A stretch of DNA of 40,092 bases from Chlorobiota bacterium (GTDB lineage Bacteria > Bacteroidota > Ignavibacteria > Tepidaquicellales > OLB5), in contig JAKEEM010000061.1 in the NCBI GenBank assembly GCA_022616535.1, positions 1-40,092 on the forward strand, given 5' to 3'. Below, piece by piece: positions 15,722 to 39,386 of this stretch. Within the stretch, counting starts at the first letter, position 1; every line of letters begins with the position of its first letter. Under the pieces are notes generated by a model, which was given only the letters and a program-made list of their open reading frames with translations, made no database searches and was not told the DNA's origin. The translations under genes and the position numbers were made by a program.

Positions 15722-17224
15722 TTACAATAAATTAGCTTCCATTTCAAGAAGTTTTTTTACGGTTACCAAATTTATATCAGCATCGCCAGTTTTATAAAGC
15801 CGCTTAACTTCTTTTTCCGCCTCACCTGAAAAACCAAAAGCAATAAAATAACCCTTGTCTCTGCCGTCCCTTTTCATAGCGGCATAAAAGTTGTCAATAT
15901 CTGGTCTGCCTACTTTATCCATTTGTTTTACCTGCACCGGGTAATATCTATCAACATCACCGAATAAATCCTCGCCTGCTTTTTTCTTTTTTTCCAATTC
16001 AATCGGGTAAAGTCTGCCGTCAATTCCAAAATCACCGGATTTTCTTTTATTAGGTATTCCGCTCATATCAGTCAATTGCCCTAATGCAATAACAGCCCAG
16101 TTCTGAAATTCAAAATGAGGCATTATCCTTAGCTCTGCTTCTGTTTTCCGTATATCGACAAGCTCAAAATCCTTTCCCTCGACAAGCTTAAAATCATCCC
16201 ATAAACGCTGAGACATTACACGGCAGGCAGTCGGTGAAACATCAATCCCAATCCATTTACGCCCAAGTTTTTGGGATGCAACTAATGTTGTGCCACAGCC
16301 ACAAAAAGCGTCAAGAACTACATCACCTTTATTAGAACTGGATGAAATTATCCTTTCCATTAGAGCCATTGGCTTTTGAGTAGGGTAACCAAGCCGTTCC
16401 TTTGCTTGTGCAGAAATTGGAGGGATGTCAGTCCATATTTCCTGCAAAGGTGCTCCTTTCATTTCCTCAAGATAACGTTTAAAGCTGGGTACACCGTTTT
16501 TGCTAATTTCAATAAACCCATTTTCATACAAAACCTCAAGTTTTTCTCTTATCGTTAATTCAGCAACTTCTTTATCTATAAGTTTTTGAACAGCCCAATT
16601 GGGTACTGCCCAATGCCTTTTTCGTGTAGATGGTTTATAGCCCTTCCATTCAATATTTGAATCCCCCTTTGTTACACCTGCACCTGTTAAATCACTTAAT
16701 CTGTATCTACCTCGTTTATCCTTGAACCGGTAGAAATTATTCAAATACTCTTCTTCGTATTCAGTATATTGCGGATGGAAAGTATATTTATCACTTTTTG
16801 TATAAAAAAATATTCTATCTGAGTTTCTACCGTATTGCTTCGGGTCATTATGAGCAGAGGTTCTTTTCCAAACAATTTCGTTTTTAAAATTATTAAAACT
16901 GAAAATTTCATCAAGCATAATTTTTACATAGTGGCTTGCGTGCCAGTCACAATGATAATAAAAACTCCCCGTTTTCTTCAGCACTCTGTATAATTTCTCA
17001 ACTCTTGGCCTCATATATCTAATATAAGCATCCGCATCGCCAAACCTGTCTGTAAAAGCTCTTTTTTCCTGCACATCGCCCCAAAATGTTTCATAATTCC
17101 TGTTGCTGTTAAACGGAGGGTCTATATATATCAGGTCAATTGATTCATCGGGTATTTCATCAAGCATTTTAAGGCAATCACCGCAGTAAATTGACCCGGT
17201 CTTAAGCTGATGCGATTTTTTCAT
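15722..17224 (-). CDS. DNA methyltransferase fused to an Mrr-like endonuclease domain
   Basis: A protein of 500 aa (502 if started two codons upstream), probably a single-chain restriction-modification enzyme. Numbered on the 502-aa form, the methyltransferase has the beta-class order: catalytic DPPF at 37-40, a variable central target-recognition region (about 120-280), then the AdoMet-binding motif DAFCGCGTT at 307-315. Such enzymes methylate the amino group of adenine (N6) or cytosine (N4). After about residue 370 comes FEFQNWAVIALG, GDFGIDG (399-405) and YPVQVKQ (430-436), the D...QxK arrangement of Mrr/PD-(D/E)XK nucleases. The start at 17224 is preferred because the paralogue at 25359-26327 begins there. 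It is divergent from the YCF48 gene. Confidence 0.85.
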   Translation of the reverse strand: MKKSHQLKTGSIYCGDCLKMLDEIPDESIDLIYIDPPFNSNRNYETFWGDVQEKRAFTDRFGDADAYIRYMRPRVEKLYRVLKKTGSFYYHCDWHASHYVKIMLDEIFSFNNFKNEIVWKRTSAHNDPKQYGRNSDRIFFYTKSDKYTFHPQYTEYEEEYLNNFYRFKDKRGRYRLSDLTGAGVTKGDSNIEWKGYKPSTRKRHWAVPNWAVQKLIDKEVAELTIREKLEVLYENGFIEISKNGVPSFKRYLEEMKGAPLQEIWTDIPPISAQAKERLGYPTQKPMALMERIISSSSNKGDVVLDAFCGCGTTLVASQKLGRKWIGIDVSPTACRVMSQRLWDDFKLVEGKDFELVDIRKTEAELRIMPHFEFQNWAVIALGQLTDMSGIPNKRKSGDFGIDGRLYPIELEKKKKAGEDLFGDVDRYYPVQVKQMDKVGRPDIDNFYAAMKRDGRDKGYFIAFGFSGEAEKEVKRLYKTGDADINLVTVKKLLEMEANLL

Positions 17225-17244
17225 AAGCATTAAATATTTAATCT

Positions 17245-17274
17245 AAAATAAAGCATTGTTATTTAAAGTTCTAT
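17245..17274. repeat. Intergenic block shared by both cassettes, copy 1
   Basis: A 30-bp stretch beginning AAAATAAAGCATTGTTA and ending AAAGTTCTAT differs at one base from 26366-26395. Both lie just upstream of a methyltransferase start on the minus strand, showing that the cassette duplication includes the divergent control region. It is probably part of the methyltransferase leader or promoter. Confidence 0.75.
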
Positions 17275-17310
17275 GTTTTTTAAACCCCCTAAAAAGTATA
17301 CAAGCATCAA

Positions 17311-17360
17311 AATATTAGGGTTAATCAAATATTAGGGTTAATCAAATATTAGGTTAATCA
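17311..17360. repeat. Three-copy 17-bp tandem repeat
   Basis: AATATTAGGGTTAATCA occurs twice in tandem (17311-17344) and is followed by a 16-bp copy missing one G (17345-17360). It lies between the divergent methyltransferase and YCF48 genes. Cassette copy 2 lacks it at the matching place. The rest of the 399-bp gap is AT-rich with nothing else seen. Confidence 0.88.
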
Positions 17361-17623
17361 AACTTTTAAATGATTTTACAAAAAATATTATCCAAACATT
17401 GAGCAACTCTATATATTTTTGAAAGTCGAGTTTTATTTATTTTTTCATAAAATATTTTAAGAATTTGAGCCATTCCATTATTTAATTTCCTAAATCAAGC
17501 AACATTTGCTAAAAATTCTACTTGCACGGAAGAAATTTAAGTATTAAATTGTCACAAAGCCCTTCAAAGAAATTGACTAAAAGGAGGCAATTCCTAAATG
17601 TTAATTCCAGCCGGAAAATAATT

Positions 17624-18835
17624 ATGAAAACAATCGCATTAATTACCTTAGCTTTATTTCTTTTTGTTAAGGCGGTGAACGCCCAATGGGTGCAAATTGC
17701 TACGATTGGCAACAATGACCTGCGCGGTGTAAAGTTTTTTAATGAACACACTGGTATTGTAGTTGGGCAGGGTGGCATTTGGCGTTCAACAAACAGCGGA
17801 GTGAACTGGACACAAGTATTACCTGAACAAAATTTGAATGCACTTTCCTTTTATGATATTAACAATGGTTTTGTTGTAGGAGATACTGGAAAAATTTACA
17901 GGACATATGATAATGGTTTAACGTGGCCACGTTTAGGAATTGGAATTACCACTAATAACCTTTATGGCGTATCATTTTCTACAATGAATCGATGTCACGC
18001 AGCTGGAGTGGGCGGAATTATAATGAGAACTTTAAACGGAGGCACTACTTGGAGTACTTTATTTTGGTCAGGGCAAGATATTTATTCTGTAATTATGAAT
18101 TATGATGGAGTCGGACTTACATTTGGAAGTGCTAATAATGAGGTAATTATAAGCACAGCCAATGGAGGAACAAATTGGCTAACAATACTGAATTCTCCGG
18201 GGAATAATTGTTATGACGGAACTTTTTTAAATAATACCGCAAATGTTTTAGTTATAGGAAATAATGGTAGAATAAGAAAGACAACAAATTATGGTTTGAA
18301 CTGGTCATTTCCTCAATCCAACGTTTCTGTAAATTTAAACGCCGTTACATTTATAAATGCCAGTGAAGCATATATTGTTGGAAATTCAGGAGTAATTATT
18401 AAGTCAACAGATGTAGGAGTGAACTGGACAAGCCAAACATCAGGGACGACAAGCAATCTCAAGGATATATCTTTTATTAATCAGCAAATTGGATGGACAG
18501 TAGGTAACAATGGTACAGTATTGAGAATAGGAATACCTGTTAGTATCACGAAGACAGGTGAGGTGTTGCCAAATGAATTTAGGTTATATCAAAACTATCC
18601 TAATCCATTCAACTCTGAAACGAAAATAAAATTTGCCCTTCCAACTGATGATTTTATTGATATGAGTTTATATGATATAACTGGCAGAAAAGTAGAGGAT
18701 TTGCTTAGTAAATTCCTTAAAGCAGGCTTTTATGAGATACATTTATCGGGTAATAATTTTTCAAGCGGAATATTTTTTTGTAGAACCAACGGGCAATCAC
18801 ATAATGGAATAATAAAATTAATCTTGATAAAATAG
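17624..18835 (+). CDS. YCF48/BNR-repeat secreted protein with T9SS sorting domain, copy 1
   Basis: A 403-aa exported protein. The ATG at 17624 is preferred over an upstream in-frame TTG because it begins a good signal peptide (MKTIALITLALFLFVKAVNAQ). The body is a run of about seven 40-45-aa repeats of the form GVKFFNEHTGIVVGQGGIW-RSTNSGVNWTQ, the beta-propeller pattern of YCF48/BNR proteins. In the photosystem assembly factor these bind other proteins; here the ligand is unknown. The last 80 residues form a T9SS sorting domain (YQNYPNPFNSETKIKF ... SGIFFCR ... IIKLILIK), so it should reach the cell surface or medium. The first 60 mature residues are nearly identical to the copy at 26602; later repeats diverge. 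Confidence 0.87.
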   Translation: MKTIALITLALFLFVKAVNAQWVQIATIGNNDLRGVKFFNEHTGIVVGQGGIWRSTNSGVNWTQVLPEQNLNALSFYDINNGFVVGDTGKIYRTYDNGLTWPRLGIGITTNNLYGVSFSTMNRCHAAGVGGIIMRTLNGGTTWSTLFWSGQDIYSVIMNYDGVGLTFGSANNEVIISTANGGTNWLTILNSPGNNCYDGTFLNNTANVLVIGNNGRIRKTTNYGLNWSFPQSNVSVNLNAVTFINASEAYIVGNSGVIIKSTDVGVNWTSQTSGTTSNLKDISFINQQIGWTVGNNGTVLRIGIPVSITKTGEVLPNEFRLYQNYPNPFNSETKIKFALPTDDFIDMSLYDITGRKVEDLLSKFLKAGFYEIHLSGNNFSSGIFFCRTNGQSHNGIIKLILIK

Positions 18836-18855
18836 TCTTAATTAGTTAAGAACGT

Positions 18856-18876
18856 AAAGTTTTTCCTAAACTTTTT
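18856..18876 (+). terminator. Weak hairpin terminator candidate
   Basis: AAAGTTT (18856-18862) and AAACTTT (18868-18874) form a 7-bp AT-rich stem with a 5-nt loop followed by TT and A-runs, 20 bp after the YCF48 gene. It may attenuate transcription into the lipoprotein gene. Confidence 0.4.
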
Positions 18877-18928
18877 AAAAAAAAATTAAAATTTAAAGTT
18901 AGAGTTAAAAACTAAAGGAGTAGAAAAA

Positions 18929-20503
18929 ATGAAATTAAAAGATTTTTCAATAATATTTTATTTTGTTATGGCATTTTTTTTAATTGCTTGCGATAGTAAA
19001 CTTCCTGTGGTTGATCCACCTGTTGTAATTCCTGCCTGTGTAGGGGGAGAAAAACAATGGACGAGTTTAACGGATGTTATGGGAGAAGATTGGACAGAAT
19101 TTAATGTTATTTTTGATAACGGAGGTGTAAATCCAACATTTCCTTTCTTGAAAAAAGGAAGAATCAATATTGGATATGGAAGCGTTCGGAAAGGAACGGT
19201 TCCTTATTCGATTCCACAGGGTAGTACCAGTGAAGATGGTTTTAATCAAGCTTGTGAAAATTTAAGTAATCAATATAGAGGTCCTTTTTTAAATTATGTA
19301 ATGGGTATGGATCGTTTTCTTTATCTTCCCCTAGGATACGAAGGAGTGGTAGGCTGGTCAAATGGACCCAATCACCCTGAGAATTATAGTAACTGGAGCT
19401 TTATTTTTTCAGGTAAGATACAAAGTACACACGGTAAAGAAGAAGAGGGACAAGAAGTTGTAGAATGGTGCTATGTCCACGAGGTGGGGCATCAAATAGC
19501 TATTACGGATCATGGGCCACATACCGGTAACGATGCTGATCATTGTATTATGCAGGGAGAATATGAATCAGGTATTCTTTCCAGATTTCAATTTTGTGAC
19601 AGACATATATGTATAATGTATAACCAATTTAACGATTACCTTGAAAAACTAAATAGCAATTTTTCATGCGAAATCAGTTTAGACAAAGCTCAATATATTG
19701 AAGGCGAGGCGGTTTGGGCAAGCCTTAAAGTAAAAAACGAAAGCTCAAAGCGCGATTCTTTGCCATACCTTGTAGGTAGTTTTTTAATTGGTGAAAGAAT
19801 GAAAGTAACGAATGAATCTGGTAAGGTTTCGTCTTATCACGGTTCTTCCGGACCACTTTTAACAACACCTTATAGGCATTTTATGCCATATGAGGATACA
19901 ACCTTTCACATTGAACTTAGCAATAACTTCGGTTTTGAATATGAAATCAACTCATATGATTATGGAAGAATGATTTCTTATTTCCCTCCGGGTAATTATA
20001 CTGTTCAATTTATTCTTAACGAGGCAGGGTTAATGAGCAATGCAGTCAGCTTTACTGTTACGGCACCTAACGAAGCTGAATCTACAAGGTTGGCTGAGCT
20101 AAGAACCATATATGGAATCAAGGAAAGAAAAGAGAGAATAGAAAAATATCACAGTTTTATAGAAAATAATAAAGGTAGTGTTTATATCCCACAGACTGTT
20201 TGGGTTATGAACTTTTGTTATGGTGTTTTATATCTGGGAGGAATGCGATTGGATGATAAAATCATACAAGTAAATAAATATTTTTTAGATAATTATTCTA
20301 ATTCTTTTTATTCTTCATTAGTAATACACACGATTTGGCGATATGAATACCAACAGACTAAAAGCGAAACAATTGCAAATAGAACATTGAAAGAAATAAT
20401 ACAAAAACACTCAGGAACTTTTGCAGCTAAAATGGCTGATTGGTGGCTAAATTCAAAAGAACCTTCTTTAAAAGATTTAGAACCTGAATCTAAAAAGAAA
20501 TAA
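18929..20503 (+). CDS. Metzincin-like metalloprotease lipoprotein, copy 1
   Basis: A 524-aa lipoprotein (lipobox LIAC, Cys21). Residues about 120-230 form a zinc-protease core: YVHEVGHQIAITDHGPH with HEVGH at 184-188 and further candidate ligands Asp194/His195, then HCIMQG (205-210), which looks like the Met-turn of metzincins. The order HExxH, a third ligand about six residues on, then the Met-turn supports a secreted or surface zinc peptidase; the target is unknown. From about residue 250 comes an immunoglobulin-like strand-rich domain (SLDKAQYIEGEAVWASLKVKN ... FPPGNYTVQFIL), then a helical tail. The start has AAAGGAG 11 bp upstream. Its stop overlaps an ATG of the giant T9SS gene by one base. 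The homologue at 27841-29813 is split into two ORFs. Confidence 0.82.
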   Translation: MKLKDFSIIFYFVMAFFLIACDSKLPVVDPPVVIPACVGGEKQWTSLTDVMGEDWTEFNVIFDNGGVNPTFPFLKKGRINIGYGSVRKGTVPYSIPQGSTSEDGFNQACENLSNQYRGPFLNYVMGMDRFLYLPLGYEGVVGWSNGPNHPENYSNWSFIFSGKIQSTHGKEEEGQEVVEWCYVHEVGHQIAITDHGPHTGNDADHCIMQGEYESGILSRFQFCDRHICIMYNQFNDYLEKLNSNFSCEISLDKAQYIEGEAVWASLKVKNESSKRDSLPYLVGSFLIGERMKVTNESGKVSSYHGSSGPLLTTPYRHFMPYEDTTFHIELSNNFGFEYEINSYDYGRMISYFPPGNYTVQFILNEAGLMSNAVSFTVTAPNEAESTRLAELRTIYGIKERKERIEKYHSFIENNKGSVYIPQTVWVMNFCYGVLYLGGMRLDDKIIQVNKYFLDNYSNSFYSSLVIHTIWRYEYQQTKSETIANRTLKEIIQKHSGTFAAKMADWWLNSKEPSLKDLEPESKKK

Positions 20504-20526
20504 TGGCAAATTTGAAAGGAATTATA

Positions 20527-23500
20527 ATGTCTAAATTAAAATTAATTTTAATTTCAACTGCTGTATTATTATTTGTATATTTGACTCACCCACTTAGTCC
20601 AGTAAGACAAGAGAAACTGAAGGAAAAGATGAATTTAAGAAAACCAGTTAAGTTAGATGAGGAAACAATGATAAAAATCGCTATCGCACAGTTAACCCAA
20701 GGGTTCGGAGAGTCTTTTAAATATCTCAGAGAACTTGAGGCAGGCAAGTATAGAATGAAGAAAAATAGTGAATATACACTAATTGAAGTTTTAAATCAGG
20801 AGGGTAATATCAAAGACTCATTTAAATTGAATTATATAACAAGCACTGAGGGTATTGTTAGTCTTGTTTTAAATGAGGAAGATTATCAACAATTAATCAG
20901 CTTCAAAAATAAAAGCAAAGTTAGAGAGAATGAGTTGCCCTCAAATTTTCCAGAGGTATTTAATAATATTTTATGGGATCAAGAAATTTTAAGATATGAC
21001 GAGGAGTATACTTTAGGGAAAATTTTTAATAGAGTGATAGCTTTGGATAAAACAGTGAACCAGTATGAGCTTGGCTCTGTTGTTTTTTATGATATAGACG
21101 ATGGAATTCTTATCCCTTATGATGATGGACAAGGAGCAAAATTACTAATATCGGATGGCGGATGGAGTAGCATTATGCAATTCGATGCAAGAAACACAAC
21201 CCAAATTAATTCGTATGGTTCTTTTGGAACGGGAAATAATAATTTCATTTTCAACAACGGAATTACGTTTGGACGGAGTTACTCACAAGGAGATGATGTT
21301 ATTTACCCGGTTTATATAGCTGACGTAGGTAATAACAGAATAATACTAATCGACTATGTCATAAATGAAGATAATGGAGCTGGATATTTCAATAGCAGTA
21401 CATTTTCAGTTTTTGTTGATAACCTTAAAAGTCCTTTTGATATATCTTACTTTTTTGCCACACAAGATGCTAACGACAAACTTTGGGTCAGTGAAGCGTC
21501 AGCTCGTCAACCAGCATTAACTTGTATTTCAAAAAGTGGCGAAATTGTACAAAGAGTAAAAGGATATAAATACGGTACATCAGGTGATAGTTTGCTTAAG
21601 GAATTCTCTCTCCCGAGATTATGCACATATAATTCTTTTGGAGCTCTGGTTTTTATAGACAATAAACGGAATGTTGTTGTTCCGTGTAAACTAGATACTA
21701 ACGGGTTTGCTACCATATATACTAATCAAAATGGAGATACAATAATTCAGTCTTATATTGAGCTAATTACTTTTCCTCAAGATTATCCTGTAACGTCAGT
21801 AAACATACAGAGAACATCATATGGAACTGGCTGGTACCCTTATCTGTGGATTACAACAAAGAATGAGGGAAATAATATTGCGATGGTTCATGCCTTTGCA
21901 TTGAATAGCAATGCCAATTGGGCTTATCTAGGTTCGGCTGATAGACCTAGAAATACAAGTTATTATTTCCGTGATTTGACAAACACGTTTTCTACAAATC
22001 ACTACTTTGATTTTTTTACATCTGAGATATGGACTGATGCCTATGGGCTTAGAAGATTTTTACCGTTTATAGAAATAAGAGATGATTATGTAGAATCATA
22101 TTGTATTGATAGTACGGATAGGTTATTGTGGAAAGCGGGCTTTACAAATGAGTGCTGGATTAAAGTTTGGGCAGAACGAAAAGTGAATTCTACGACTTGG
22201 GAGCAAGTAGCGATTAAGGAAATTGAAGGAAGTGTAAAACCCCCAAATACATATGAGGCAGTAATTTGGAGATTGAAAGGATATACCGCTATTTCTGGCG
22301 AAGACCCAATCGATATAAAGCTAAATATTCCTCTTAAAGACTACGTATTAGGTGGTAGTGTGAGATTACATGCAAGACTATATCCTGAGTATTTTGATTA
22401 TAATAATTTGAATCAATATGACCAGTATATACCGAGAGATTACGAAGTTGATGTCTTAAAAACCTGTTTACCCAAGCCCGGCGGCTGTCCATTCCTCTAC
22501 GTTAGAGACGAAAACCTTGATTACACAGTCGATAATAATCTCCTCCACCGCTCAGAGTTTACCCCAGGTGATATAACTGATGTTTATAAACTTCAAGTTA
22601 CTCCCTCAACTAGTGATAACAAGGTCGAGGTTTACCTAGTCGAAAACGAGGATGATTTAGGCTACATAGGCCAAGTCAAAATGTATGCTGTGGACTATCC
22701 AGATGACAAACGGCTCGCTATAACCGAAGATAACCAAATTGTAGTATACGATTCAGTTACAGTAAAAGCCGCTGACACCGTCTTGCTTAACGGCAATGAT
22801 ATTACTCCCAAGGTTCACTACCACCAACCAAACACTCCGGTAGACGGTTCAGCAGGAGACTATTTGCTTGCAAAATTTAACTATTTAACCCCACTTGTAA
22901 GAAATAACAAAAACAAAGATGTGAGAGGCAATTCTAAATCTTCACAAATCAACGATGCGAAAACAGGCAGAAATGAAAACACGAGTAAAGACAGTCAGAG
23001 TAATAATAAAGACAGGCAAAGTAATAATGAAAGAGCGAAGAGCATTGTCCCGCAGGGATGGTTACCCAAAACAAGCTCACGTGAAGGCGGGTTTCCTATT
23101 GCCTTTATAGCTGAATTAAGAAACGTAACCAATCCGGTTCCCGGTGTTAAAGACACAGCAGGTTACTTGACCGCTTACTCAATAACAGGTTCGCTCTTTT
23201 CCAGTCCATTTGCACGCAGGGAGCTAAGTTCTGTTGTTGTCCTGTCGCTCTTTGCCTCAGGGGATTTAGTAGACAGTCTTGAAATAGACTGGCAAAGCGC
23301 ATATAATCTGAAAAAACTTGGGATAGCAACTCTGGATTACAATAACTTTACAGCTAGGGAAATGTCCCTTGCAGAGGGTAAATACATAACTTTGACTGTT
23401 GATAGTAACATTACTACAATCCTAACAAGCATTGACGGCGAATACGGTGAGGTTAATTCATCGGCACTTTTAAAATTACAGTTCGATGCTTCTCAGCTTC

Positions 23501-23871
23501 CTCCTATTTCCTCTAACTATAAAAGGGAGTATGTTATAGAGGTAACCGGAAATTATGTAAACGGCGATGGTGATTCACCGTTAAGGGTTAAGACGGAATT
23601 ACCTTTGACTTACAGACTATCACAAAATTATCCAAATCCATTTAACCCTATTACAAAGATTAATTACGAACTTCCCAAAAACAGCCGTGTTAACTTAGTG
23701 GTTTATGACATTCTCGGCAGGGAAGTAATACGGCTTGTTAATAATGAAGTCAAGGAAGCTGGACGTTATACGGCTACATTTGATGCTCTTAACTTTGCTT
23801 CCGGAGTTTATTTCTATAGAATCGAAGCAGGTAATTTTGTTCAAAGCAGGAAAATGGTTTTGATAAAGTAA
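20527..23871 (+). CDS. Giant T9SS-secreted protein, copy 1
   Basis: A protein of 1114 aa from ATG 20527, chosen for its AAAGGA Shine-Dalgarno and because it begins the signal peptide (MSKLKLILISTAVLLFVYL); an in-frame ATG at 20503 would add eight residues. The N-terminal two thirds contain NHL-like strands (ISDGGWSSIMQFD, PVYIADVGNNRIILIDY) suggesting a propeller. At about residue 645 a very conserved part begins (CLPKPGGCPFLYVRDENL), followed by a charged, Asn/Lys/Ser-rich linker (about 798-850). The T9SS sorting domain ends the protein (LSQNYPNPFNPITKINYELP ... SGVYFYRIEAGNFVQSRKMVLIK). It follows the metalloprotease without a gap, so protease and giant protein are very likely made together. 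Function is unknown; surface adhesion or polymer binding are guesses. Confidence 0.85.
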   Translation: MSKLKLILISTAVLLFVYLTHPLSPVRQEKLKEKMNLRKPVKLDEETMIKIAIAQLTQGFGESFKYLRELEAGKYRMKKNSEYTLIEVLNQEGNIKDSFKLNYITSTEGIVSLVLNEEDYQQLISFKNKSKVRENELPSNFPEVFNNILWDQEILRYDEEYTLGKIFNRVIALDKTVNQYELGSVVFYDIDDGILIPYDDGQGAKLLISDGGWSSIMQFDARNTTQINSYGSFGTGNNNFIFNNGITFGRSYSQGDDVIYPVYIADVGNNRIILIDYVINEDNGAGYFNSSTFSVFVDNLKSPFDISYFFATQDANDKLWVSEASARQPALTCISKSGEIVQRVKGYKYGTSGDSLLKEFSLPRLCTYNSFGALVFIDNKRNVVVPCKLDTNGFATIYTNQNGDTIIQSYIELITFPQDYPVTSVNIQRTSYGTGWYPYLWITTKNEGNNIAMVHAFALNSNANWAYLGSADRPRNTSYYFRDLTNTFSTNHYFDFFTSEIWTDAYGLRRFLPFIEIRDDYVESYCIDSTDRLLWKAGFTNECWIKVWAERKVNSTTWEQVAIKEIEGSVKPPNTYEAVIWRLKGYTAISGEDPIDIKLNIPLKDYVLGGSVRLHARLYPEYFDYNNLNQYDQYIPRDYEVDVLKTCLPKPGGCPFLYVRDENLDYTVDNNLLHRSEFTPGDITDVYKLQVTPSTSDNKVEVYLVENEDDLGYIGQVKMYAVDYPDDKRLAITEDNQIVVYDSVTVKAADTVLLNGNDITPKVHYHQPNTPVDGSAGDYLLAKFNYLTPLVRNNKNKDVRGNSKSSQINDAKTGRNENTSKDSQSNNKDRQSNNERAKSIVPQGWLPKTSSREGGFPIAFIAELRNVTNPVPGVKDTAGYLTAYSITGSLFSSPFARRELSSVVVLSLFASGDLVDSLEIDWQSAYNLKKLGIATLDYNNFTAREMSLAEGKYITLTVDSNITTILTSIDGEYGEVNSSALLKLQFDASQLPPISSNYKREYVIEVTGNYVNGDGDSPLRVKTELPLTYRLSQNYPNPFNPITKINYELPKNSRVNLVVYDILGREVIRLVNNEVKEAGRYTATFDALNFASGVYFYRIEAGNFVQSRKMVLIK

Positions 23872-23883
23872 CAATACAGGAGA

Positions 23884-23978
23884 TTTAAAGCGGGCAGGTG
23901 AAACCCAAATAAGATGAACACTTCTTATTTGACCAAGTTCCGGTAGGGAAACTCAAGGTGAAGCCTGCCCGCTTAAAA
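23884..23978 (+). ncRNA. Conserved structured element after giant T9SS gene, copy 1
   Basis: An outer stem AAGCGGGCAGG (23888-23898) pairs perfectly with CCTGCCCGCTT (23964-23974). Inside it, CAAATAAGA (23906-23914) pairs with TCTTATTTG (23923-23931), and a core CCGGTAGGGA (23940-23949) follows. The inner stem and core recur at 33320-33380 after the second giant gene with different loop lengths. No T-run follows, so it is not a plain terminator. It may be a 3'-UTR RNA, a small ncRNA or a DNA recombination site; I match it to no known family. Strand is assumed from the upstream gene. Confidence 0.55.
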
Positions 23979-24055: not shown

Positions 24056-24772
24056 TTGGAAAAGAAAATTAAATTTAGTTGGGTGGCGTTTGATTCTGCG
24101 GTGCTTCAATCCGGTATCGAGCAGAGTTTTACTTTTTTCAATTCCGAAACTAATATTGGAGAAAATGAAGTTCGCAAGTGGGAAAATGATTTCCTAAATT
24201 TATTGATTAAAAAAAGTAGTTTTAGAGAACTCTTACTAGGTGAGTTGTTCCTACCATTCACTACGAAATTTTTTACTCACATTAGGCAGCCTTTTATAAC
24301 TTATCATAATCATAAACCCGGCGATATAGACCTTCTGTTGGTTGACCCGTATAAACCAGAGTCGGCAATAGCTATTGAATGCAAAAAAGTTAATGTTACA
24401 ACGAGCATAGGTTCAGAAAGCGTTAATAAGCGAGAAAAAATAAGAAATGCTGTTAGTCAAGTAAAAGGTTTAATTGGTATGGGTTTTTCAAAGGTATATT
24501 TGATGGTTTTAATTGGGTCATATGGGGCTGATAAATTAGATGTGAACTATCTATACAGGGGGATAAGAGACGAAAGTTTTAAAAAGGTATATAACTTTCC
24601 AGACAGAGAGTATTTAGACGACAGAGCGGGGATTATCTTTGTTGAGATTGTTCAGCCAACAGGTGTTTCGATTAATTACAGAGGTGTATTTTTAGTGGGT
24701 ATAGATAGGTATGCCCAAGAACAAGCACAACCAAAGGACATTACTTTAAAAATAAAATCATTACTAACTTAA
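24056..24772 (+). CDS. PD-(D/E)XK nuclease-like protein
   Basis: A 238-aa soluble protein with the signature of the PD-(D/E)XK nuclease fold: an early Glu63 (LLGELFLPF), then KPGDIDLLLVD (Asp90/Asp92) and AIAIECKKVN (Glu108, Lys110), i.e. D-x15-E-x-K on consecutive strands. Such proteins are found among restriction enzymes and other defence nucleases. The latter half (SQVKGLIGMGFSKVYLMVLIGSYG) looks like the continuing alpha/beta core. It starts with TTG at 24056, for lack of a nearby ATG; no strong Shine-Dalgarno. The next gene follows after 39 bp and probably belongs to it. It lies exactly between the two copies of the large cassette. Substrate and exact family are unknown. Confidence 0.65.
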   Translation: MEKKIKFSWVAFDSAVLQSGIEQSFTFFNSETNIGENEVRKWENDFLNLLIKKSSFRELLLGELFLPFTTKFFTHIRQPFITYHNHKPGDIDLLLVDPYKPESAIAIECKKVNVTTSIGSESVNKREKIRNAVSQVKGLIGMGFSKVYLMVLIGSYGADKLDVNYLYRGIRDESFKKVYNFPDREYLDDRAGIIFVEIVQPTGVSINYRGVFLVGIDRYAQEQAQPKDITLKIKSLLT

Positions 24773-24811
24773 ACGTTATTGCATAACTTTTAAACCACTT
24801 AGCCGTTCATA

Positions 24812-25358: not shown

Positions 25359-26327
25359 TCAGTACTCATACAATATAAATATTTTAGAATCCTTTAAGCA
25401 ATTATACAATAAGAACTTGCTAATAATAATAGATATTTTATCTAAGTTAATTTTGGACTCAAGGAGTTTTTCTTTTAAAAGATAAATGGCTAAATTTATG
25501 TTGTCATCTGAAAGTAGACCGGTTATAATACCATCATAATAAATTAAAAGTTCGTAACTGTCGGCTTTTTGATATTTAGATAATATTTTCGCCTTATCTA
25601 AAATTCTTTTCGAGACAAGGTCGGCAAACATATGTTCAACAGCATCTCCTATTAAAGGTTTTTCTCCTCCTCTAAATTTAATCACTGGTTTCAATGTTCT
25701 TACGTATTCCTTTTCTAATTCTGTCTTCTCTAATTCAATCTCCCTATTGTTTGGGGAAGGGCTTGCTATATTATCTATTCTAAAAACTCTTCCATTTTCA
25801 TCAACATGCTTAAAAAATCTTTTCACATAATCATCATAACCTTGTGCGTCAAATGAGTATTGGCTGTTAAATGTATATTTTTCCCCTTTTGTGTAAAAAA
25901 ATATTGACTCAGTACATACGCCAAATTCATATGATTTGTGCTGAGTTTCACCTCTACCTGTTTTTCTTTTCCAAATAATTTCATTTTGAAAGTTATTGAA
26001 ATTAAAAATCTCATCAAGCATAATTTTAACGTAGTGGCTTGCGTGCCAGTCGCAATGGTAATAAAAGCTCCCCGTTTTCTTTAATACCCTGTAAAGCTGC
26101 AACACACGAGGTCTCATATAGTTTATATAAGCTTCGGCATCGCCGAACCTGTCCGTAAAAGCCCTTTTTTCCTGCACATCGCCCCAAAATGTTTCATAGT
26201 TACGGTTGCTGTTAAACGGCGGGTCTATATAAATAAGGTCAATCGATTCATCCGGTATTTCATCAAGCATTTTAAGGCAATCACCGCAGTAAATTGAGTG
26301 TGTTTTAAGCTGATGAGATTTCTTCAT
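25359..26327 (-). CDS. Truncated, chimeric DNA methyltransferase
   Basis: A 322-aa protein whose first 120 or so residues are nearly identical to the methyltransferase-endonuclease at 15722-17224 (IDPPFNSNRNYETFW, KKTGSFYYHCDWHASHYVKIM), including catalytic DPPF. The central target-recognition part then differs (TGRGETQHKSYEFGVCTESI). From about residue 200 on, the sequence (EIELEKTELEKEYVRTLKPVIKF ... YELLIYYDGIITGLL) is unrelated to copy 1. The AdoMet-binding motif DAFCGCGTT and the Mrr-like domain are absent. In beta-class enzymes that motif is C-terminal to DPPF, so this protein should be unable to methylate alone. I infer a recombination product that joined a methyltransferase head to another protein's tail. 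A separate tail-encoded function cannot be excluded. Confidence 0.75.
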   Translation of the reverse strand: MKKSHQLKTHSIYCGDCLKMLDEIPDESIDLIYIDPPFNSNRNYETFWGDVQEKRAFTDRFGDAEAYINYMRPRVLQLYRVLKKTGSFYYHCDWHASHYVKIMLDEIFNFNNFQNEIIWKRKTGRGETQHKSYEFGVCTESIFFYTKGEKYTFNSQYSFDAQGYDDYVKRFFKHVDENGRVFRIDNIASPSPNNREIELEKTELEKEYVRTLKPVIKFRGGEKPLIGDAVEHMFADLVSKRILDKAKILSKYQKADSYELLIYYDGIITGLLSDDNINLAIYLLKEKLLESKINLDKISIIISKFLLYNCLKDSKIFILYEY

Positions 26328-26365
26328 AAGTATTAAATATTAAGCACTACCAATTAATTTTGGCT

Positions 26366-26395
26366 AAAATAAAGCATTGTTAATTAAAGTTCTAT
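26366..26395. repeat. Intergenic block shared by both cassettes, copy 2
   Basis: Differs at one base from 17245-17274 and lies at the matching place upstream of the minus-strand methyltransferase. The flanking bases up to 26601 are AT-rich and do not keep the 17-bp tandem repeats of copy 1. Confidence 0.75.
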
Positions 26396-26601
26396 ACTTA
26401 AGACCTCCCCTACCCCTCACCTTTTTAGGACAATCCAACAAAAATTTCACCTAAATTTCTTCTAATTTTTGTTATTTTAATTAAATTTCTTACTTTCTGT
26501 CACATTTATAGCCCGACAATCGAAAAAATCGTTGGTTGAAATACTTAGTTTTAAAATATATTATTATATTTACAATAATTAAAACAAAACTCGGTTCTCT
26601 C

Positions 26602-27813
26602 ATGAGGAAATTAACCTTTTATATTTTCTTCCTGATTTCTTCCAACCTGTCTAATTCTCAATGGGTTCAAATAGCTACGATTGGAAACTATGACCTGCGC
26701 GGCGTAAAATTCTTTAACGAACACACCGGTATTGTTGTTGGTTCGGGTGGCATTTGGCGCTCAACAAACAGCGGAGTGAACTGGACACAGATACTGGCAG
26801 GCGAAAATTTAAATGGGCTATCGTTCCCTGATGCTAATACTGGCTATGCAGTTGGCGATAGCGGGAAGATTTATAAAACTATAAATGGTGGTTTAAATTG
26901 GGAACAACAAGGAATTGGTGTAACTACAAAAAAATTAAACTCGGTTTCATTTCCTAATAATATCTGGGGTTGGGCAGTAGGTGAGGATGGGTTAATACTG
27001 CATACATACAACGCAGGTAGTAATTTTGTAGTTCAGAACTCAGGTGTAGGCTATAATATTAACTATATTCAAATGATTGATGACCATACTGGCTATATTT
27101 GCGGTAGTGTTAACGAAGAAATATTTGGATTTACCGTCAATATCGGGATAAACTGGTTATGGACTTTTTATATGGGTGGAAATATCTTGAATGCACTTAG
27201 TTATATACCTGTAAGTGGAGGAGCTGTGCTTGCCGTTGGGTCAAATGGAAGAATTAGGAAAACTACGAACAATGGAATAAACTGGGTTGTTGCGACAAGT
27301 CCTGTAAATGTCAGTCTGAATAACGTTGTTTTTTTGGACGGCAGTACTGGCTACATAGCGGGAAATTCAGGTTACATTTTAAAAACGACAAATAGTGGAC
27401 TGAATTGGACAGTGGACGCTAATGTTACAACAAGTAATTTTAAAAACCTCTCATTTATAAATCAAACAACTGCTTGGGTGGTTGGAACGGGCGGTGTTGT
27501 AATTAGAACAGGTATTCCCGTTGGCATTTCAAATTCTGAAAATGAAATGCCTCAAGATTTTGAGCTAAAAAATTACCCCAACCCATTTAACCCGACTACT
27601 ATAATAAGTTTTTCGCTCCATGAGAATAGTTTTGTTAGATTAATAATTTATGATGTAATAGGAAATGAAATCCAGACCCTTGTAAGTGGAGAATTGAAAA
27701 AAGGGTATTATGAAATATTATTTGACGGAAGCAGCTTAGCAAGCGGATTATATTATTGCAGAATTGAGACAAGAAGTTTCAAAAAAACTATTAAAATGGT
27801 TTTAACAAAATAA
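26602..27813 (+). CDS. YCF48/BNR-repeat secreted protein with T9SS sorting domain, copy 2
   Basis: A 403-aa paralogue, the same length as copy 1 at 17624. ATG 26602 is used because the signal peptide MRKLTFYIFFLISSNLSNSQ begins there; the frame is open upstream but without coding character. Repeats such as GVKFFNEHTGIVVGSGGIW-RSTNSGVNWTQ and GYAVGDSGKIYKTINGGLNWE predict a beta-propeller. The T9SS domain is KNYPNPFNPTTIISFSLHEN ... SGLYYCRIETRSFKKTIKMVLTK. The first about 60 mature residues nearly match copy 1, while later repeats and the sorting domain are only moderately similar. It is followed after 27 bp by the second metalloprotease gene, so the two are likely cotranscribed. Confidence 0.87.
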   Translation: MRKLTFYIFFLISSNLSNSQWVQIATIGNYDLRGVKFFNEHTGIVVGSGGIWRSTNSGVNWTQILAGENLNGLSFPDANTGYAVGDSGKIYKTINGGLNWEQQGIGVTTKKLNSVSFPNNIWGWAVGEDGLILHTYNAGSNFVVQNSGVGYNINYIQMIDDHTGYICGSVNEEIFGFTVNIGINWLWTFYMGGNILNALSYIPVSGGAVLAVGSNGRIRKTTNNGINWVVATSPVNVSLNNVVFLDGSTGYIAGNSGYILKTTNSGLNWTVDANVTTSNFKNLSFINQTTAWVVGTGGVVIRTGIPVGISNSENEMPQDFELKNYPNPFNPTTIISFSLHENSFVRLIIYDVIGNEIQTLVSGELKKGYYEILFDGSSLASGLYYCRIETRSFKKTIKMVLTK

Positions 27814-27840
27814 AATTTTAAAAACTAATAATGATTAGTT

Positions 27841-28905
27841 ATGAAAAAGAATAATTATATTTTTCTACTTATATCTGTTATATGTTTAAGCAACCTTTTT
27901 ATTGCTTGCAGTGATGATGGCGAACAGCCAGAAGGCGGTGGTTCATCTAGCAATCCAAGAATAGAAATAGATAATGTAAATCCTCGGTTTCTTAATGTAA
28001 CCGATGAAAGCTTTGATGTTACAATAAAACTTTATGATGTAGATCCTCCCCAAACAGTTCATCTTGAAATAAGAAAACATGATTCACCGACCTGTGATGC
28101 TTTCTCTGAGTCTTTCACAGCAGGTTCTTCCTACTCAAGGCTGGTTTATACAGATAGTTTGCAATCAATTTGCCTATCCCCTAATTCTATTTTTCGAATA
28201 ACTGTCTGGTTTGATGATAACGGGACAATTCATCGTGATTCTGTTTATTATCAATGGGGTACGCCACCTCCAGTATTCATTACCAGCACGGTTAATGTGG
28301 AAACTTGGCGAATGACATATGTTGGTGACACCTTAGCCGATACTATATCAAGAAGTATAATTAGGTCGTTCAATCCTTCAGATTCAAATTATGTTAAAGT
28401 TCCTATATCATTTGACCCTTTACGGGTTATTGAAAATGATACGGAATTTGTAGCCGCCGATCTTGACGACCTTGGTGGCCAACTGGATGATTACTCGAGG
28501 GTGTATGACAGCAGTACTAGCAATAAAAAAATATTTTTTGCTCGCTCCTCAACTTTATTAGGGGTACTTGGACTCTCACATCATAATGATGTTAATTATA
28601 AGAACTGGAGTTTCGTATTTAAAAAGAATATTGATACTTTATTCGCAATATTGTACAATGACACGAGCATAGCAAATTATGTCGGGGTTCACGAGATGCT
28701 TCATCAATTAGGATGGATACCGAATGAGGAGCATAATAAACACCTAGGATATTTTTCAACTAAATGTGCTATGCTAGGCGGTGATCAGCTCCAAAACAAT
28801 TTTTACAATGAAATACGAACATACACTCCTCAATACAGAGTATGTACTTATCATGCTATGAAATTGAGGACTAAATTAGGATTTATACCAGAGGTAGAAC
28901 TTTAA
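27841..28905 (+). CDS. Metzincin-like metalloprotease lipoprotein, copy 2 (catalytic part)
   Basis: A 354-aa lipoprotein (lipobox FIAC, Cys23) followed by a Gly/Ser-rich spacer. An Ig-like domain (about 35-140) precedes the protease core. The zinc site reads VGVHEMLHQLGWIPNEEH, with HEMLH at 284-288 and candidate third ligands further on, then KCAMLGG as a possible Met-turn. It corresponds to the first half of the 524-aa protein at 18929 but has an additional N-terminal domain. It ends soon after the catalytic region, and the domain that follows in copy 1 is encoded by the next ORF in another frame. Whether this is gene fission or a frameshift is unresolved. Confidence 0.75.
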   Translation: MKKNNYIFLLISVICLSNLFIACSDDGEQPEGGGSSSNPRIEIDNVNPRFLNVTDESFDVTIKLYDVDPPQTVHLEIRKHDSPTCDAFSESFTAGSSYSRLVYTDSLQSICLSPNSIFRITVWFDDNGTIHRDSVYYQWGTPPPVFITSTVNVETWRMTYVGDTLADTISRSIIRSFNPSDSNYVKVPISFDPLRVIENDTEFVAADLDDLGGQLDDYSRVYDSSTSNKKIFFARSSTLLGVLGLSHHNDVNYKNWSFVFKKNIDTLFAILYNDTSIANYVGVHEMLHQLGWIPNEEHNKHLGYFSTKCAMLGGDQLQNNFYNEIRTYTPQYRVCTYHAMKLRTKLGFIPEVEL

Positions 28906-28961
28906 AATATTCTTCTGCATCCTTAAATAAAATAGAACACGAGATCCATGCTCCTTTTGTT

Positions 28962-29813
28962 ATGAAAAATTTAATGAACGACAAGTATTCTCTTAAGATG
29001 TCTTTAGCGAAAAGAGAGTACAAAAAATATGAACCTGTAATTGCACAATTCGAACTTGTAAACCACGATTCAAACCCGATGCCGATTTATAATCTTTTTG
29101 AAGAGGATTCGGAAGAGCCCGGTGTGATAGTTATAGATGAAAAAGGTAATAAGTTGGAAATAAATAATGGAGTCAAAGCGTATTTTGTTCCATGGATCCA
29201 CACAATTCTACAACCTGGTGATACACTCATAATTTCTATGGCTATTAATAATTGGGGGAGTGAAGCAAGTCCATCAGAGAAATGGTTAGATTATGATGAT
29301 AATATTTATTTTGGAGAATTTGGATATTTCGAACCTGGGAATTATAAAGCTTATTTCTATTTTAACAACATAGCTCAAGAAAGATATTCCACTTCACTTC
29401 AGTCAAATGAAGTTGAATTTACCGTTAAAGAACTGAGTGAGGAGGACAAGAATGTTTTGAAATTATATAGGGATTTACGTAAGCAAAGGAAATTCGATAA
29501 AATTACTTTGGATTATCCGGATAATATTTTTTCAGAACATGTATACGCTAGAAATTTATTGACTAAATATTTAGGTAAAACCTCTTATAATACAATAGAG
29601 GTTTTTAATAACTTTGTAAATAAATATCCGAATTCATTCTATTTGTTGGACTGGAATTTCTTAAGTATATTTTTAAAAAGTGCATCTGATTTTAAAGGTA
29701 ATCATCAGGAAGGGATAAACCTAATTCTAAATATACAGACATCGGAAACTTTAAAGAGAGTTTTAAAAAACAGGGCTTTTTTGCGTTACATATTTCCTGA
29801 CATTGAAGAATAA
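28962..29813 (+). CDS. C-terminal half of the copy-2 metalloprotease, separate ORF
   Basis: A 283-aa protein matching the second half of the intact homologue at 18929-20503: YSLKMSLAKREYKKYEPVIAQFELVN corresponds to its FSCEISLDKAQYIEGEAVWASLKVKN, and the Ig-like domain (EPGNYKAYFYFNN) and helical tail (FNNFVNKYPNSFYLL) follow in the same order. It has no signal peptide. Its frame is open back to about 28875, before the stop of the upstream ORF at 28905, and is offset by two bases, so an indel near 28875-28905 could have split a single gene. If it is translated alone it would stay in the cytoplasm, where the domain would have no obvious partner. I regard it as more likely part of a broken gene than an independent protein. 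Confidence 0.6.
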   Translation: MKNLMNDKYSLKMSLAKREYKKYEPVIAQFELVNHDSNPMPIYNLFEEDSEEPGVIVIDEKGNKLEINNGVKAYFVPWIHTILQPGDTLIISMAINNWGSEASPSEKWLDYDDNIYFGEFGYFEPGNYKAYFYFNNIAQERYSTSLQSNEVEFTVKELSEEDKNVLKLYRDLRKQRKFDKITLDYPDNIFSEHVYARNLLTKYLGKTSYNTIEVFNNFVNKYPNSFYLLDWNFLSIFLKSASDFKGNHQEGINLILNIQTSETLKRVLKNRAFLRYIFPDIEE

Positions 29814-29954
29814 TTTTTTAAAAAGTTAAAGATTGGATTTATTTACTAATATTTCAGAAAATGTCCTAATGATTTTCATAATTATGAAGGTTTTCTCAAT
29901 TTCTACAAAGTAATCTAAAATACATCAAATATAAAAATTTTTTAAAATTTTAAA

Positions 29955-32900
29955 ATGAAAAAAAGTAAATTATCATTGATAGTCTTAACAGTTTTCTTAT
30001 TTTCTTTTAACATTTATTCTCAATACAATTTAAAAGAAATTATAAATAAAGTTGACCCTAAGGGGCCGGTTGAACTACCTGACAGCGTTCAAATGCGTCT
30101 GCTTGTTGACCAGATTTTACAAATTTACGGTAAGTCATTTGTTTATTATAATGAACTTAAATCAGGTAGTTTCAAATTTAAAATAAAAAATGACAGAAAT
30201 TCTGAATATAGCATTCAGATAAATTCTACAGATAGAAAAAGTATTGAAATTAAGGTTAATAAAATAGAATCTCCCTTGGGGGGATATTATTTGGCTTTAG
30301 ACGATAATGAAATGAAGAAATTTCTAACATTTCGTGCCAAGGCTTTTGGCTTTAGAAGCGGACAGAGCAGTCCTATAACTATTATTGAAAGAGACAACAT
30401 TTTAGTTGATAAAGAGATACTGCCGATTGAAGAATTACAGCCTGAGCAAAGGAGAATATTAGATAGAGACCTTGTTTATAATAATTTTGTAAATCAATGG
30501 GGAAATGAATTGGAATTATACCAGCTTTGTCAGGAAGGAATTTTACTTCCTTACCAGAGCGGACATAGCAAACTCCTAACTCTCGATAATGGATACAGCA
30601 GTATTATTTACTATGATGAAGGTGCTATGGATGACGAAGACGAACCACTAAACCGAACCTACGGCTATTGGGGTGATGACCCCGGAGAGTTTATGAATCC
30701 GATGGGAATGTGTGTCGGTCGTAAGTTCCAGCAAGGAAACGATGACATATACACGATTTATGTTGCCGATATGTATAATCTACGTGTAAGAGTTGTAAAT
30801 TATGTTGCGGATATAACCTTTAATAAATATGGAACTTTTGATAACAACTCATTTAGGAATGCGGCTCATGTAACCTATCCTTATGATGTTAGTTACTTTA
30901 AAAATTATTCTGATACAGCGAATGACAAAATTTGGGTAACCAGAGCACACCCTACCCAAAACTTTTTAAGCTGTATATCTGTAACCACAATCCCCTTTTG
31001 GAGCGGAGGTGAAGTTCAAACGTTTACCGGATACAAGTATGAAAATACTGGTCAATATTTTTTCTTTGAACCGGTTCATTATCAAGGCTTGCTGTTTACA
31101 ACGGTGGTTTTAGCGCTTTATGTTTCATAGATAACATTAGAAACTGCCTTGTAGGTTGTTTACTGGACAGCAATGGATTAGGGGTAGCTGAGGAAATTTC
31201 CGAGCGAGAAAACTATATTATTGCAAGCGAAATGATATACTTTCCTGAATCCCAAGTGATTAATTCTGTTTCATTTCATAAAACGCCTCTCTCTCACAGC
31301 TTGTGGCCCAGTTTATGGGTAACCACACCCTCTTATATTCATCATTTAAAAATGAATAATAATGCTCATATTCAGTACTTAGCATCTTCAAGACTTCCAG
31401 AAAACTCCTTAGAATATTTTACTAATTTAAGGAATACAATTTGCACTGACGGTGTTTATGATATTTATACGATTGAAAATTGGACAAACTCAAGAGGCCT
31501 TAGAAAATATTATCCTTTCTGTGATATTCATTCTGGAATTCTGGAAAATTACTGTGAGGATAGCTTGGATATGGTGAGATTTAAAGCAACCTTTACAAAC
31601 GATTGCTGGCTTTATCTTACGGCTAAGAGGAAAAACAAACAAGGCAATTGGGAAACAGTGAAAATAAAAAAATTAAACGGTGGCGTAGTAGATACTACTT
31701 TTGCAATCAAATGGCAGCTTGCTGGGTGGAATCAGGACAGCGACGATTTATTTATAAATTTACAATTGGATTTGCCGATGGAAGATTACGTTTTAGGCGA
31801 CTCTGTTTTATTGGGAGTAAGAATATACCCTGAGTATTCTAATCCCGGTCAATATTTTGATAGCGACCATATTTACAACGAATATAAATCTTACGTTAAA
31901 AAATCTTGTCTCGTCAAGCCCGGCGGTTGTCCATTTTTATACGTTAAAGACGAAAACCTCAATTACACAGTTGATAACAACCTCCTCCACCGCTCTGAGT
32001 TTTCAAGCGGTGATATAACCGATGTTTATAAATTACAGGTTAACCCCTCAACCAGTGGTGGTAACGTTGAAGTATATATTGTCGAAAATGAAGATGATTT
32101 AGGTTACATCGACCAGGTTAAAATGTATGCTGTGGACTATCCAGATGACAAACGGCTTGCCATAACCGAAGATAACCAAATCGTTATATTTGATTCTGCA
32201 ACGGTAAAAGCCGCCGACACCGTCTTGCTAAACGGCAACGATATTACACCCAAGGTTCACTACCACCAGCCAAACACACCAGTAGACGGCTCAGCAGGGG
32301 ACTATTTGCTTGCAAAATTTAACTATTTAACTCCGCTTGTAAGAAGTAACAAAAACAAAGATATAAGAGGCGATTCTAAATCTCCACAAATCAACGATGC
32401 GAAAACAGGCAGAAATGAAAACGCGAGTAAAGACAGGCAGAATAATAATGACAGGCAAAGTAATAATGAAAGAGCAAAAAACATTCAAACTAACTCACGT
32501 GGAGGCGGATTCCCTATTGCCTTTATAGCTGAGGTAAGGAATGTAACTAATCCGGTTCCCGGTGTTAAAGATACAGCAGGTTACTTAACCGCTTATTCAA
32601 TAACAGGTTCGTTATTTTCAAGTCCTTTTGCACGCAGGGAACTAAGCTCTGTAGTTGTCTTACCGCTATTTTCAGAGTCCGATTTGGTAGATAGTCTTGA
32701 AATAGACTGGCAAAGCGCATATAACCTCAAAAAGCTTGGCATAGCAACACTGGATTATACCAACTTCACTTCTACTCAAATGACATTGGCAGAGGGTAAA
32801 TACATTACCTTAACAATTGACAGCAATATAACCTCAATCTTAACAAGCGTAGATGGCAAATATGGCGAGGTTAATTCTTCTGCTCTTATAAAATTAGAGT

Positions 32901-33286
32901 TTGATGCTTCTCAGCTCCCACCGTTAGGCAACAATAAAAGGGAATTTGTAATCGAAGTAACAGGAAGGTATGAAAATGGCGATAGCGATTCACCGTTAAG
33001 AGTTAAACAGGAGGTACCCTTAACGTTCAGACTATCGCAAAATTACCCGAATCCGTTTAACCCTGTAACAAAAATCAACTATGAGCTACCCAAAAACAGC
33101 CGTGTAAACTTAGTCATTTATGATATTCTTGGCAGGGAAGTAATGCGGCTTGTCAATAATGAATTCAAAGAAGCCGGACGCTATACTGTTACATTTGAAG
33201 CACAAAACTTTGCTTCTGGAGTTTATTTTTACAGAATTGAAGCGGTGAATTTTGTACAGAGCAAGAAAATGGTTTTGATTAAATAA
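29955..33286 (+). pseudogene. Giant T9SS-secreted protein, copy 2, frameshifted
   Basis: From ATG 29955 the frame runs 391 codons: signal peptide MKKSKLSLIVLTVFLFSFNIYSQ, then NHL-like strands (YTIYVADMYNLRVRVVNY). It leaves the homologous frame just after EPVHYQG at about 31087. The other frame carries on with LAVYNGGFSALCFIDNIRNCL and stays open to 33286, containing the conserved block CLVKPGGCPFLYVKDENL, a charged linker and the T9SS domain (LSQNYPNPFNPVTKINYELP ... SKKMVLIK). Adding one base at 31087 would restore about 1110 aa, the size of copy 1. The last about 450 residues are highly similar to copy 1, the first about 640 much less. As read, the product would lack the sorting domain and could not be anchored by T9SS. 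Confidence 0.85.
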
Positions 33287-33297
33287 AAATAATTAGA

Positions 33298-33415
33298 AAG
33301 GCGGGCAGGCAGGACCCCCCAAATAAGATGTTTAAAACCATTCTTATTTGAAATTAATTGACTGGGAACACCGGTAGGGATATTCCTGTTAATAAAAAAA
33401 ACCTGCCACCGTTTT
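33298..33415 (+). ncRNA. Conserved structured element after giant T9SS gene, copy 2
   Basis: Equivalent to 23884-23978. CAAATAAGA (33320-33328) pairs with TCTTATTTG (33342-33350) around a 13-nt loop instead of 8, and the core CCGGTAGGGA is at 33371-33380. The outer stem GGCAGG/CCTGCC (33304-33309 or 33308-33313 with 33402-33407) is shorter and partly degraded compared with copy 1. Same position, about 20 bp after the gene. Function unknown. Confidence 0.5.
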
Positions 33416-33595: not shown

Positions 33596-33704
33596 ATAAA
33601 ACAACAATCCCGCTTTTAAGCGGGACTGATGTAAAATTTTCACAACGGAATAATCCTTATTGTGATTTTAGCTTTCAAATTAAAGCTCTAATGATATTTG
33701 ATAC
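33596..33704 (-). ncRNA. tracrRNA of the type II-C system
   Basis: The plus strand at 33659-33706 is a degenerate copy of the reversed CRISPR repeat (TTGTGATTTTAGCTTTCAAATT, then GATATTTGATAC), so a minus-strand RNA would carry the anti-repeat AATTTGAAAGCTAAAATCACAA that pairs with crRNA. Reading on, AAGGATTATTCC with flanking CACAA/TTGTG forms a nexus-like hairpin. It ends in the terminator TCCCGCTTAAAAGCGGGA (33608-33625) and a T-rich run. This is the standard order of tracrRNA parts for Cas9. It is divergent from cas9, and its 5' end is estimated from the promoter boxes at 33708-33739. Confidence 0.88.
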
Positions 33705-33707
33705 ACT

Positions 33708-33739
33708 CAAATATAATAACAAATATACTTAATTCAAAA
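33708..33739 (-). promoter_or_regulatory. Bacteroidota-type promoter for the tracrRNA
   Basis: On the minus strand TTTTG (33735-33739) is followed after 19 nt by TATATTTG (33708-33715), a full match to the TTTG / TAnnTTTG promoter pattern. It would start transcription near 33702. A second TATATTTG (33720-33727) lies 12 bp further upstream. The -33 box overlaps the cas9 start codon, so tracrRNA and cas9 expression may interfere. Confidence 0.7.
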
Positions 33740-39364: not shown

Positions 39365-39386
39365 CCTAAAAAGTATTTCTGTGCCC

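Follow-up and report, generated by a model that had tools for sequence, protein, structure and literature searches.

The window, a stretch of 40,092 nucleotides from the genome of a Chlorobiota bacterium, contains a tandemly duplicated gene cassette, and a short structured element stands at the end of each cassette copy (Table 1). The order in the cassette is a DNA methylase gene on the minus strand, a gene for a YCF48-like protein that carries a type IX secretion tail, a gene for a putative secreted protease, a giant gene and the element. The protease had no Pfam match and was recognised by a metalloprotease-like motif seen by eye. Homology between the cassettes was detectable from inside the methylase genes up to the element, which forms its right edge. 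The earlier note had located the element after two giant genes. This is correct for copy 1, whose gene encodes 1122 amino acids, but the giant gene before copy 2 is split into two ORFs (391 and 684 amino acids), and its read-through match, with an identity of 66%, contains two TGA codons. Since both copies of the element occupy homologous places in the tandemly duplicated cassette, they go back to one duplication. The description of the element as recurring is therefore right in that two copies exist, but the direct repeats indicate a single tandem cassette duplication and not an independent recurrence.

Table 1. Positions of the host genes, the cassettes and the parts of both element copies in the window
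Feature	Position	Strand	Evidence or remark
Gene preceding copy 1, for a 1122-aa protein with a type IX secretion sorting domain at its C-terminus	20503..23871	+	Pfam PF18962, 1.6e-10
ORF of 684 aa preceding copy 2 (C-terminal part of the paralogous gene)	31232..33286	+	Pfam PF18962, 1.3e-10
391-aa ORF, N-terminal part of the paralogous gene	29955-31130		Separate ORF
Cassette copy 1, comprising the methylase gene in part, the genes for the YCF48-like secreted protein and the putative protease, the giant gene and the element	16779..23978		Direct repeats
Cassette copy 2	25870..33413		Direct repeats D1-D4, D7-D9, D16 and D17 versus cassette copy 1
Element copy 1, whole	23887..23974	+	Sequence read; covariance-model match of 96.7 bits (model built from copy 1 itself); fold z -5.4
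Copy 1 outer stem, left arm AAGCGGGCAGG	23888..23898	+	Perfect 11-bp complement of 23964-23974
Copy 1 inner hairpin CAAATAAGA-(8 nt)-TCTTATTTG	23906..23931	+	Arms 23906-23914 and 23923-23931; loop TGAACACT
Copy 1 core hairpin AGTT-CC-GGTA-GG-GA-AACT, holding CCGGTAGGGA	23936..23953	+	Structure comparison with copy 2
Copy 1 core CCGGTAGGGA	23940-23949	+	Sequence read
Copy 1 outer stem, right arm CCTGCCCGCTT	23964..23974	+	Followed by AAAATTG, no T-run
Element copy 2, whole	33298..33413	+	Sequence read; covariance-model match of 87.6 bits (by construction); fold z -2.8
Copy 2 outer stem, left arm GGCGGGCAGG	33300..33309	+	Pairs imperfectly with right arm
Copy 2 inner hairpin CAAATAAGA-(13 nt)-TCTTATTTG	33320..33350	+	Arms 33320-33328 and 33342-33350
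Copy 2 core hairpin AACA-CC-GGTA-GG-GA-TATT, holding CCGGTAGGGA	33367..33384	+	Structure comparison with copy 1
Copy 2 core CCGGTAGGGA	33371-33380	+	Sequence read
Copy 2 outer stem, right arm CCTGCCACC	33402-33410	+	Followed by GTTTTGTTTA

The divergence between the two cassettes is mosaic. The N-terminal halves of the methylases and the C-terminal halves of the giant genes are about 78-90% alike, and the C-terminal halves of the methylases and the N-terminal halves of the giant genes differ strongly. To judge from the sequences, this pattern suggests repeated recombination or gene conversion. The two DNA methylase genes (15722-17230 and 25359-26327, both on the minus strand) are nearly the same in their N-terminal half; one of the enzymes carries an Mrr-like nuclease domain, and the other is short and may be truncated. 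Two ORFs adjoining the short methylase gene (24056-25312) had neither a Pfam nor a PADLOC match, and the first of them contains a possible nuclease-like motif as seen by eye.

The architecture of the element reported in the earlier note was confirmed in its main parts. The 9-bp inner stem CAAATAAGA/TCTTATTTG and the core CCGGTAGGGA are identical in both copies, the inner loop measuring 8 nt in copy 1 and 13 nt in copy 2. Copy 1 has a fully paired outer stem of 11 bp. An outer stem GCGGGCAGG/CCTGCC is common to both copies; in copy 2 its left arm agrees with that of copy 1 but the right arm is imperfect, and 88.9% of the outer-stem cells are paired across both copies. The remark that no T-run follows applies to copy 1 but not to copy 2, where the element is followed by a T-rich stretch (GTTTTGTTT; 6 T in the 8 positions of GTTTTGTT). 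A third helix was found around the core of both copies, with a GGTA loop, a CC/GG closing, a GA bulge and a variable lower stem, which is AGTT/AACT in copy 1 versus AACA/TATT in copy 2. Two pairs of this stem are changed on both sides between the copies and one pair is mismatched in copy 2. The earlier account lacked this third helix and its two compensatory changes. Because there are only two sequences, the covariation in the core hairpin cannot reach significance, and the observed value was matched by 113 of 500 shuffles.

On the plus strand both copies folded as RNA more stably than 200 dinucleotide shuffles (z values in Table 1). The minus strands folded about as strongly, so that folding does not tell the strand of the element. 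Between the copies all 18 nucleotides of the inner stem and all 10 of the core are identical, while loops and linkers are altered in length and sequence. The 130-nt regions after the two stop codons have 11 9-mers in common, whereas shuffles share 0.1 on average and at most 3, and the flanks downstream of both copies showed no similarity above shuffles. In the last 92 codons before the element pS was 0.59, dS about 1.2 and the identity at fourfold sites 47%, which is nearly saturated; over the whole shared C-terminal part of the giant genes dS was 0.83 and dN 0.08. That the stem and core blocks are identical despite nearly saturated synonymous sites argues for a constraint on the element. The blocks look conserved by selection, as judged from a single pair of copies in a cassette with conversion-like tracts elsewhere. 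The core CCGGTAGGGA by itself is a weak marker, as it occurs four times in the genome and the two occurrences outside the element are apparently coding.

The element starts 12-17 nt past the stop codon (about 16 nt in copy 1 and 12 nt in copy 2). In a strict scan of 90 nt of 3' flank, 13 of 27 other genes of the same genome with the same secretion tail were followed by a canonical terminator, compared with 10 of 224 control windows. The median distance from the stop codon to these terminators is 20 nt, and most of them begin at 17-26 nt. The element thus lies in the ordinary terminator slot of such genes, which favours a role as terminator or in the 3'-UTR. A consensus scan of the plus strand (23.70-24.30 kb and 33.20-33.80 kb) detected no terminator at the element itself or between it and the next co-directional gene, which begins at 24056 after copy 1 and at 33739, with Cas9, after copy 2. 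A canonical intrinsic terminator has a GC-rich stem near the last codon of the transcript, a loop of 3-8 nt and a U-tract directly after the stem. The element has the GC-rich stem soon after the stop codon but not the short loop, and the U-tract is missing from copy 1 but present in copy 2. As the outer stem of either copy surrounds roughly 65-90 nt of branched structure and copy 1 has no T-run, neither copy is a canonical intrinsic terminator.

With moderate confidence, the element is regarded as a lineage-specific, elaborated 3'-UTR or terminator-type structure that was copied with the cassette. Location, folding, conservation above the synonymous level and the changes in the third helix support the view that a conserved structure stands at the 3' end of these genes; a 3'-UTR element was among the proposals of the earlier note. 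It holds the place of a terminator and probably also its role. It would be a transcribed 3'-UTR structure that follows the gene of a cargo protein of the type IX secretion system (T9SS) and replaces the intrinsic terminator there. The hairpin behind this gene in the ancestral cassette may have been enlarged into a branched structure, in which a GC-rich GGCAGG/CCTGCC outer stem surrounds the CAAATAAGA hairpin and the CC-GGTA-GG hairpin, and this enlarged structure would then have been copied once, along with the whole cassette. As the 3' end of the messenger the element could stop or pause the polymerase, block 3' exonucleases, or do both, and the transcript would as a result be kept out of the next co-directional gene. 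We infer that the element is transcribed and that it is active as a terminator or stabiliser. The inner stem and the core are identical to the letter, which suggests an extra sequence-specific contact beyond the need of a plain terminator.

The main rival to this terminator-type reading is a lineage-specific structured regulatory RNA, either an sRNA released from the 3'-UTR or a protein-binding 3'-UTR element, with the inner stem and the CCGGTAGGGA core as recognition parts; a passenger repeat, a recombination site and chance survival come after it. A regulatory RNA is rather unlikely, and slightly less likely is the narrower version, a lineage-restricted structured RNA of three helices on the 3' ends of T9SS-cargo messengers whose CC-GGTA-GG-GA core binds a protein or which releases an sRNA. 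The letter-for-letter identity of inner stem and core next to changed loops and linkers, at a nearby pS of about 0.5-0.6, would be expected of such an RNA, as would a core hairpin whose pairing was kept through two double changes. However, this covariation is not significant with two sequences, no sigma-70-like promoter was found at copy 1, and neither the model nor the pattern searches yielded a relative beyond the two copies.

The model was a covariance model of the two sequences, aligned after manual shortening of the linkers of copy 2; the large searches made with it used the stricter filters of Infernal, which weak relatives could escape. In the genome itself the model found only the two copies, and nothing convincing turned up when 148 relatives and, for the class, 391 genomes were searched, in collections with one genome of the genus. 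The absence of further matches is an outcome that the earlier note had named as refuting, and a new ncRNA family, as had been considered, is thus unsupported. Four weak model matches of 20-25 bits (L205-L208) were rejected, as they had either no core or no arms. The exact pattern of half-stem and core gave one extra match in 395 genomes of the phylum, attributable to chance (L199; the stem is absent and the sequence looks coding), and none in viral contigs. A pattern of core and right arm matched only copies 1 and 2 when 59 relatives were searched. With blastn, only short chance matches were obtained in 99 relatives and the genome itself; BLAST found nothing in phages and, in plasmids, a 22-nt match (E 0.3) inside a restriction gene. 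The statement that no family matches was borne out by Rfam, which gave no match in the window at the gathering threshold, and a permissive search gave only matches at chance level and no riboswitch.

The secretion tail itself is common in the genome, with at least 150 places, and the element stands behind only two of those listed; it is missing from at least 148 further genes that have this tail. It is also absent behind the homologues of the giant gene examined in related genomes (G004, G005, G007 and G020). In G007 the homologue is followed by a plain intrinsic terminator (AAAAAGGAACG...CGTTCCTTTTTTA), in G004 a convergent gene overlaps the stop codon, and in G005 and G020 the 3' sequence is simpler. 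The absence of relatives holds for the collections searched and is no proof of uniqueness.

The outer stem brings in the second rival, which is improbable: a palindromic DNA repeat, non-autonomous mobile or REP-like, akin to the dispersed CCTGCC/GGCAGG palindromes, that has no function for the gene and was present before the duplication. The arm sequence GCGGGCAGG is over-represented in the genome (38 occurrences versus 11 in the reversed control), and the CCTGCC...GGCAGG palindrome, mostly in the form CCTGCCTGCWGCAGGCAGG, had 61 matches versus none in the reversed control. One such palindrome (G000:C50:20197-20216) also contains GCGGGCAGGCAGG of copy 2. The arms of the element, however, have the order GGCAGG...CCTGCC, which is the reverse of that in the palindrome, so that the element is not simply a palindrome with an insert. 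Moreover, the inner stem and core occur in no dispersed repeat, the model found only two places in the genome, and a repeat without function should lose identical blocks at such divergence. Judging by these shared words, the outer arms may nevertheless be derived from, or shaped by, the dispersed palindrome motif.

The 19-bp palindrome CCTGCCTGCWGCAGGCAGG and its near variants are dispersed and mostly intergenic among the copies viewed (e.g., C2:21037-21055 and C35:827-845). In 0.7 Mb of loci from other genomes it is all but missing, with three matches in all. Nesting of the palindrome in terminator stems was seen in single cases (L213 and L183) and was discarded as a general feature, flank pairing being 4.56 overall versus 4.26 in shuffled sequences.

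It is very improbable that the element is a site of DNA recombination, with a cruciform or attC-like structure, that served to exchange or duplicate the cassettes. The exchange of cassettes through the element had been suggested in the earlier note but found no support, as no copies are present at the other cassette edges: on the left side of either cassette homology fades inside the methylase gene, and the genome has no third copy. Detectable homology of the cassettes does end on the right with the element, but plain divergence would likewise place the boundary at the last sequence that is conserved. In favour of such a site, copy 1 folds well as single-stranded DNA (z -5.7) and the window has tyrosine recombinase genes (8593-9465 and 12944-13903); against it, copy 2 barely beats shuffles (z -1.6) and these genes are 10-25 kb distant. 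Integron attC sites have outer boxes, GTTRRRY and RYYYAAC, at the ends of an imperfect palindrome. Such boxes are absent from the element, whose arms GCGGGCAGG and CCTGCCCGC contain neither GTT nor AAC. Equally remote is coincidental preservation of ordinary intergenic DNA, with similarity left from the duplication and perhaps aided by gene conversion: the copies do lie at homologous positions, conversion-like tracts are present (dS 0.30 in one stretch of 80 codons) and a further intergenic part of the cassette, D16, has 79% identity, but the identical blocks coincide with the stems and core and are interrupted by several indels, unlike a conversion tract, and the flanking non-coding DNA has no similarity above shuffles.

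Several neighbouring features of the contig were recorded. Its first 52 nucleotides consist of a 13-bp tandem repeat, CTTTAAGTTAAGA. The two tyrosine recombinase genes are both in its left half and suggest a past insertion of a mobile element. A type II CRISPR-Cas locus extends over 33739-40092, with Cas9 (1426 aa), Cas1, Cas2 and an array of 46-nt repeats at a spacing of 76 nt, which runs off the contig end. The likely tracrRNA is encoded on the minus strand upstream of cas9 (33600-33708), with an anti-repeat at 33660-33705, AAGGATTATTCCGTTGTG, and a terminator, CCCGCTTAAAAGCGGG, with a T-rich tail; it had no Rfam match. The element was also considered as the tracrRNA of the adjacent Cas9, and this was rejected because the anti-repeat sits elsewhere and on the other strand.

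Most likely, then, the element is a gene-end structure of an unusual kind that evolved locally, and not a new RNA family of wide distribution. If this is true, it shows on a small scale how a hairpin of the terminator type can develop into a branched 3'-UTR structure under sequence constraint, here in a little-studied lineage of the Bacteroidota/Chlorobi group, probably the Ignavibacteria to judge from related records. The case also illustrates that two similar copies in one window can stem from a single gene duplication. Its wider value will be modest until more genomes of the genus exist.

Several known systems can be compared with the element. Riboswitches and other Rfam families are likewise multi-helical with a conserved core, but the element lies 3' of genes and has no match at the gathering threshold. 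By eye, CCGGTAGG was taken to resemble the c-di-GMP-I riboswitch and 'AGGGAA...GGTGAA' the cobalamin riboswitch; neither likeness was borne out by Rfam, and the second motif is not kept in copy 2. The element was further set beside the target cruciform of diversity-generating retroelements (PMC3240598). Both are DNA that can form hairpins, close to the 3' end of a gene whose product is secreted or on the cell surface. The paralogues here, unlike the targets of such retroelements, have mostly synonymous differences (dN 0.08, dS 0.83) that are not adenine-directed, and no reverse transcriptase was found among the 27 window proteins that were scanned with Pfam. Palindromic repeats of the REP/BIME type at 3' ends act as mRNA stabilisers and attenuators (PMC2267715). 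Like them, the element is a structured palindromic sequence just past a stop codon, and it contains the GGCAGG/CCTGCC words of the palindrome of this genome. REP families, however, are dispersed in many copies, and the two copies of the element come from one cassette duplication. The intrinsic terminators behind T9SS-cargo genes of the same genome differ from the element in their short loop, since the element has two further hairpins, sequence-conserved inner parts and, in copy 1, no T-run. They resemble it in that they stand soon after the stop codon of the same kind of gene, have a GC-rich stem and form the sole hairpin before the next gene.
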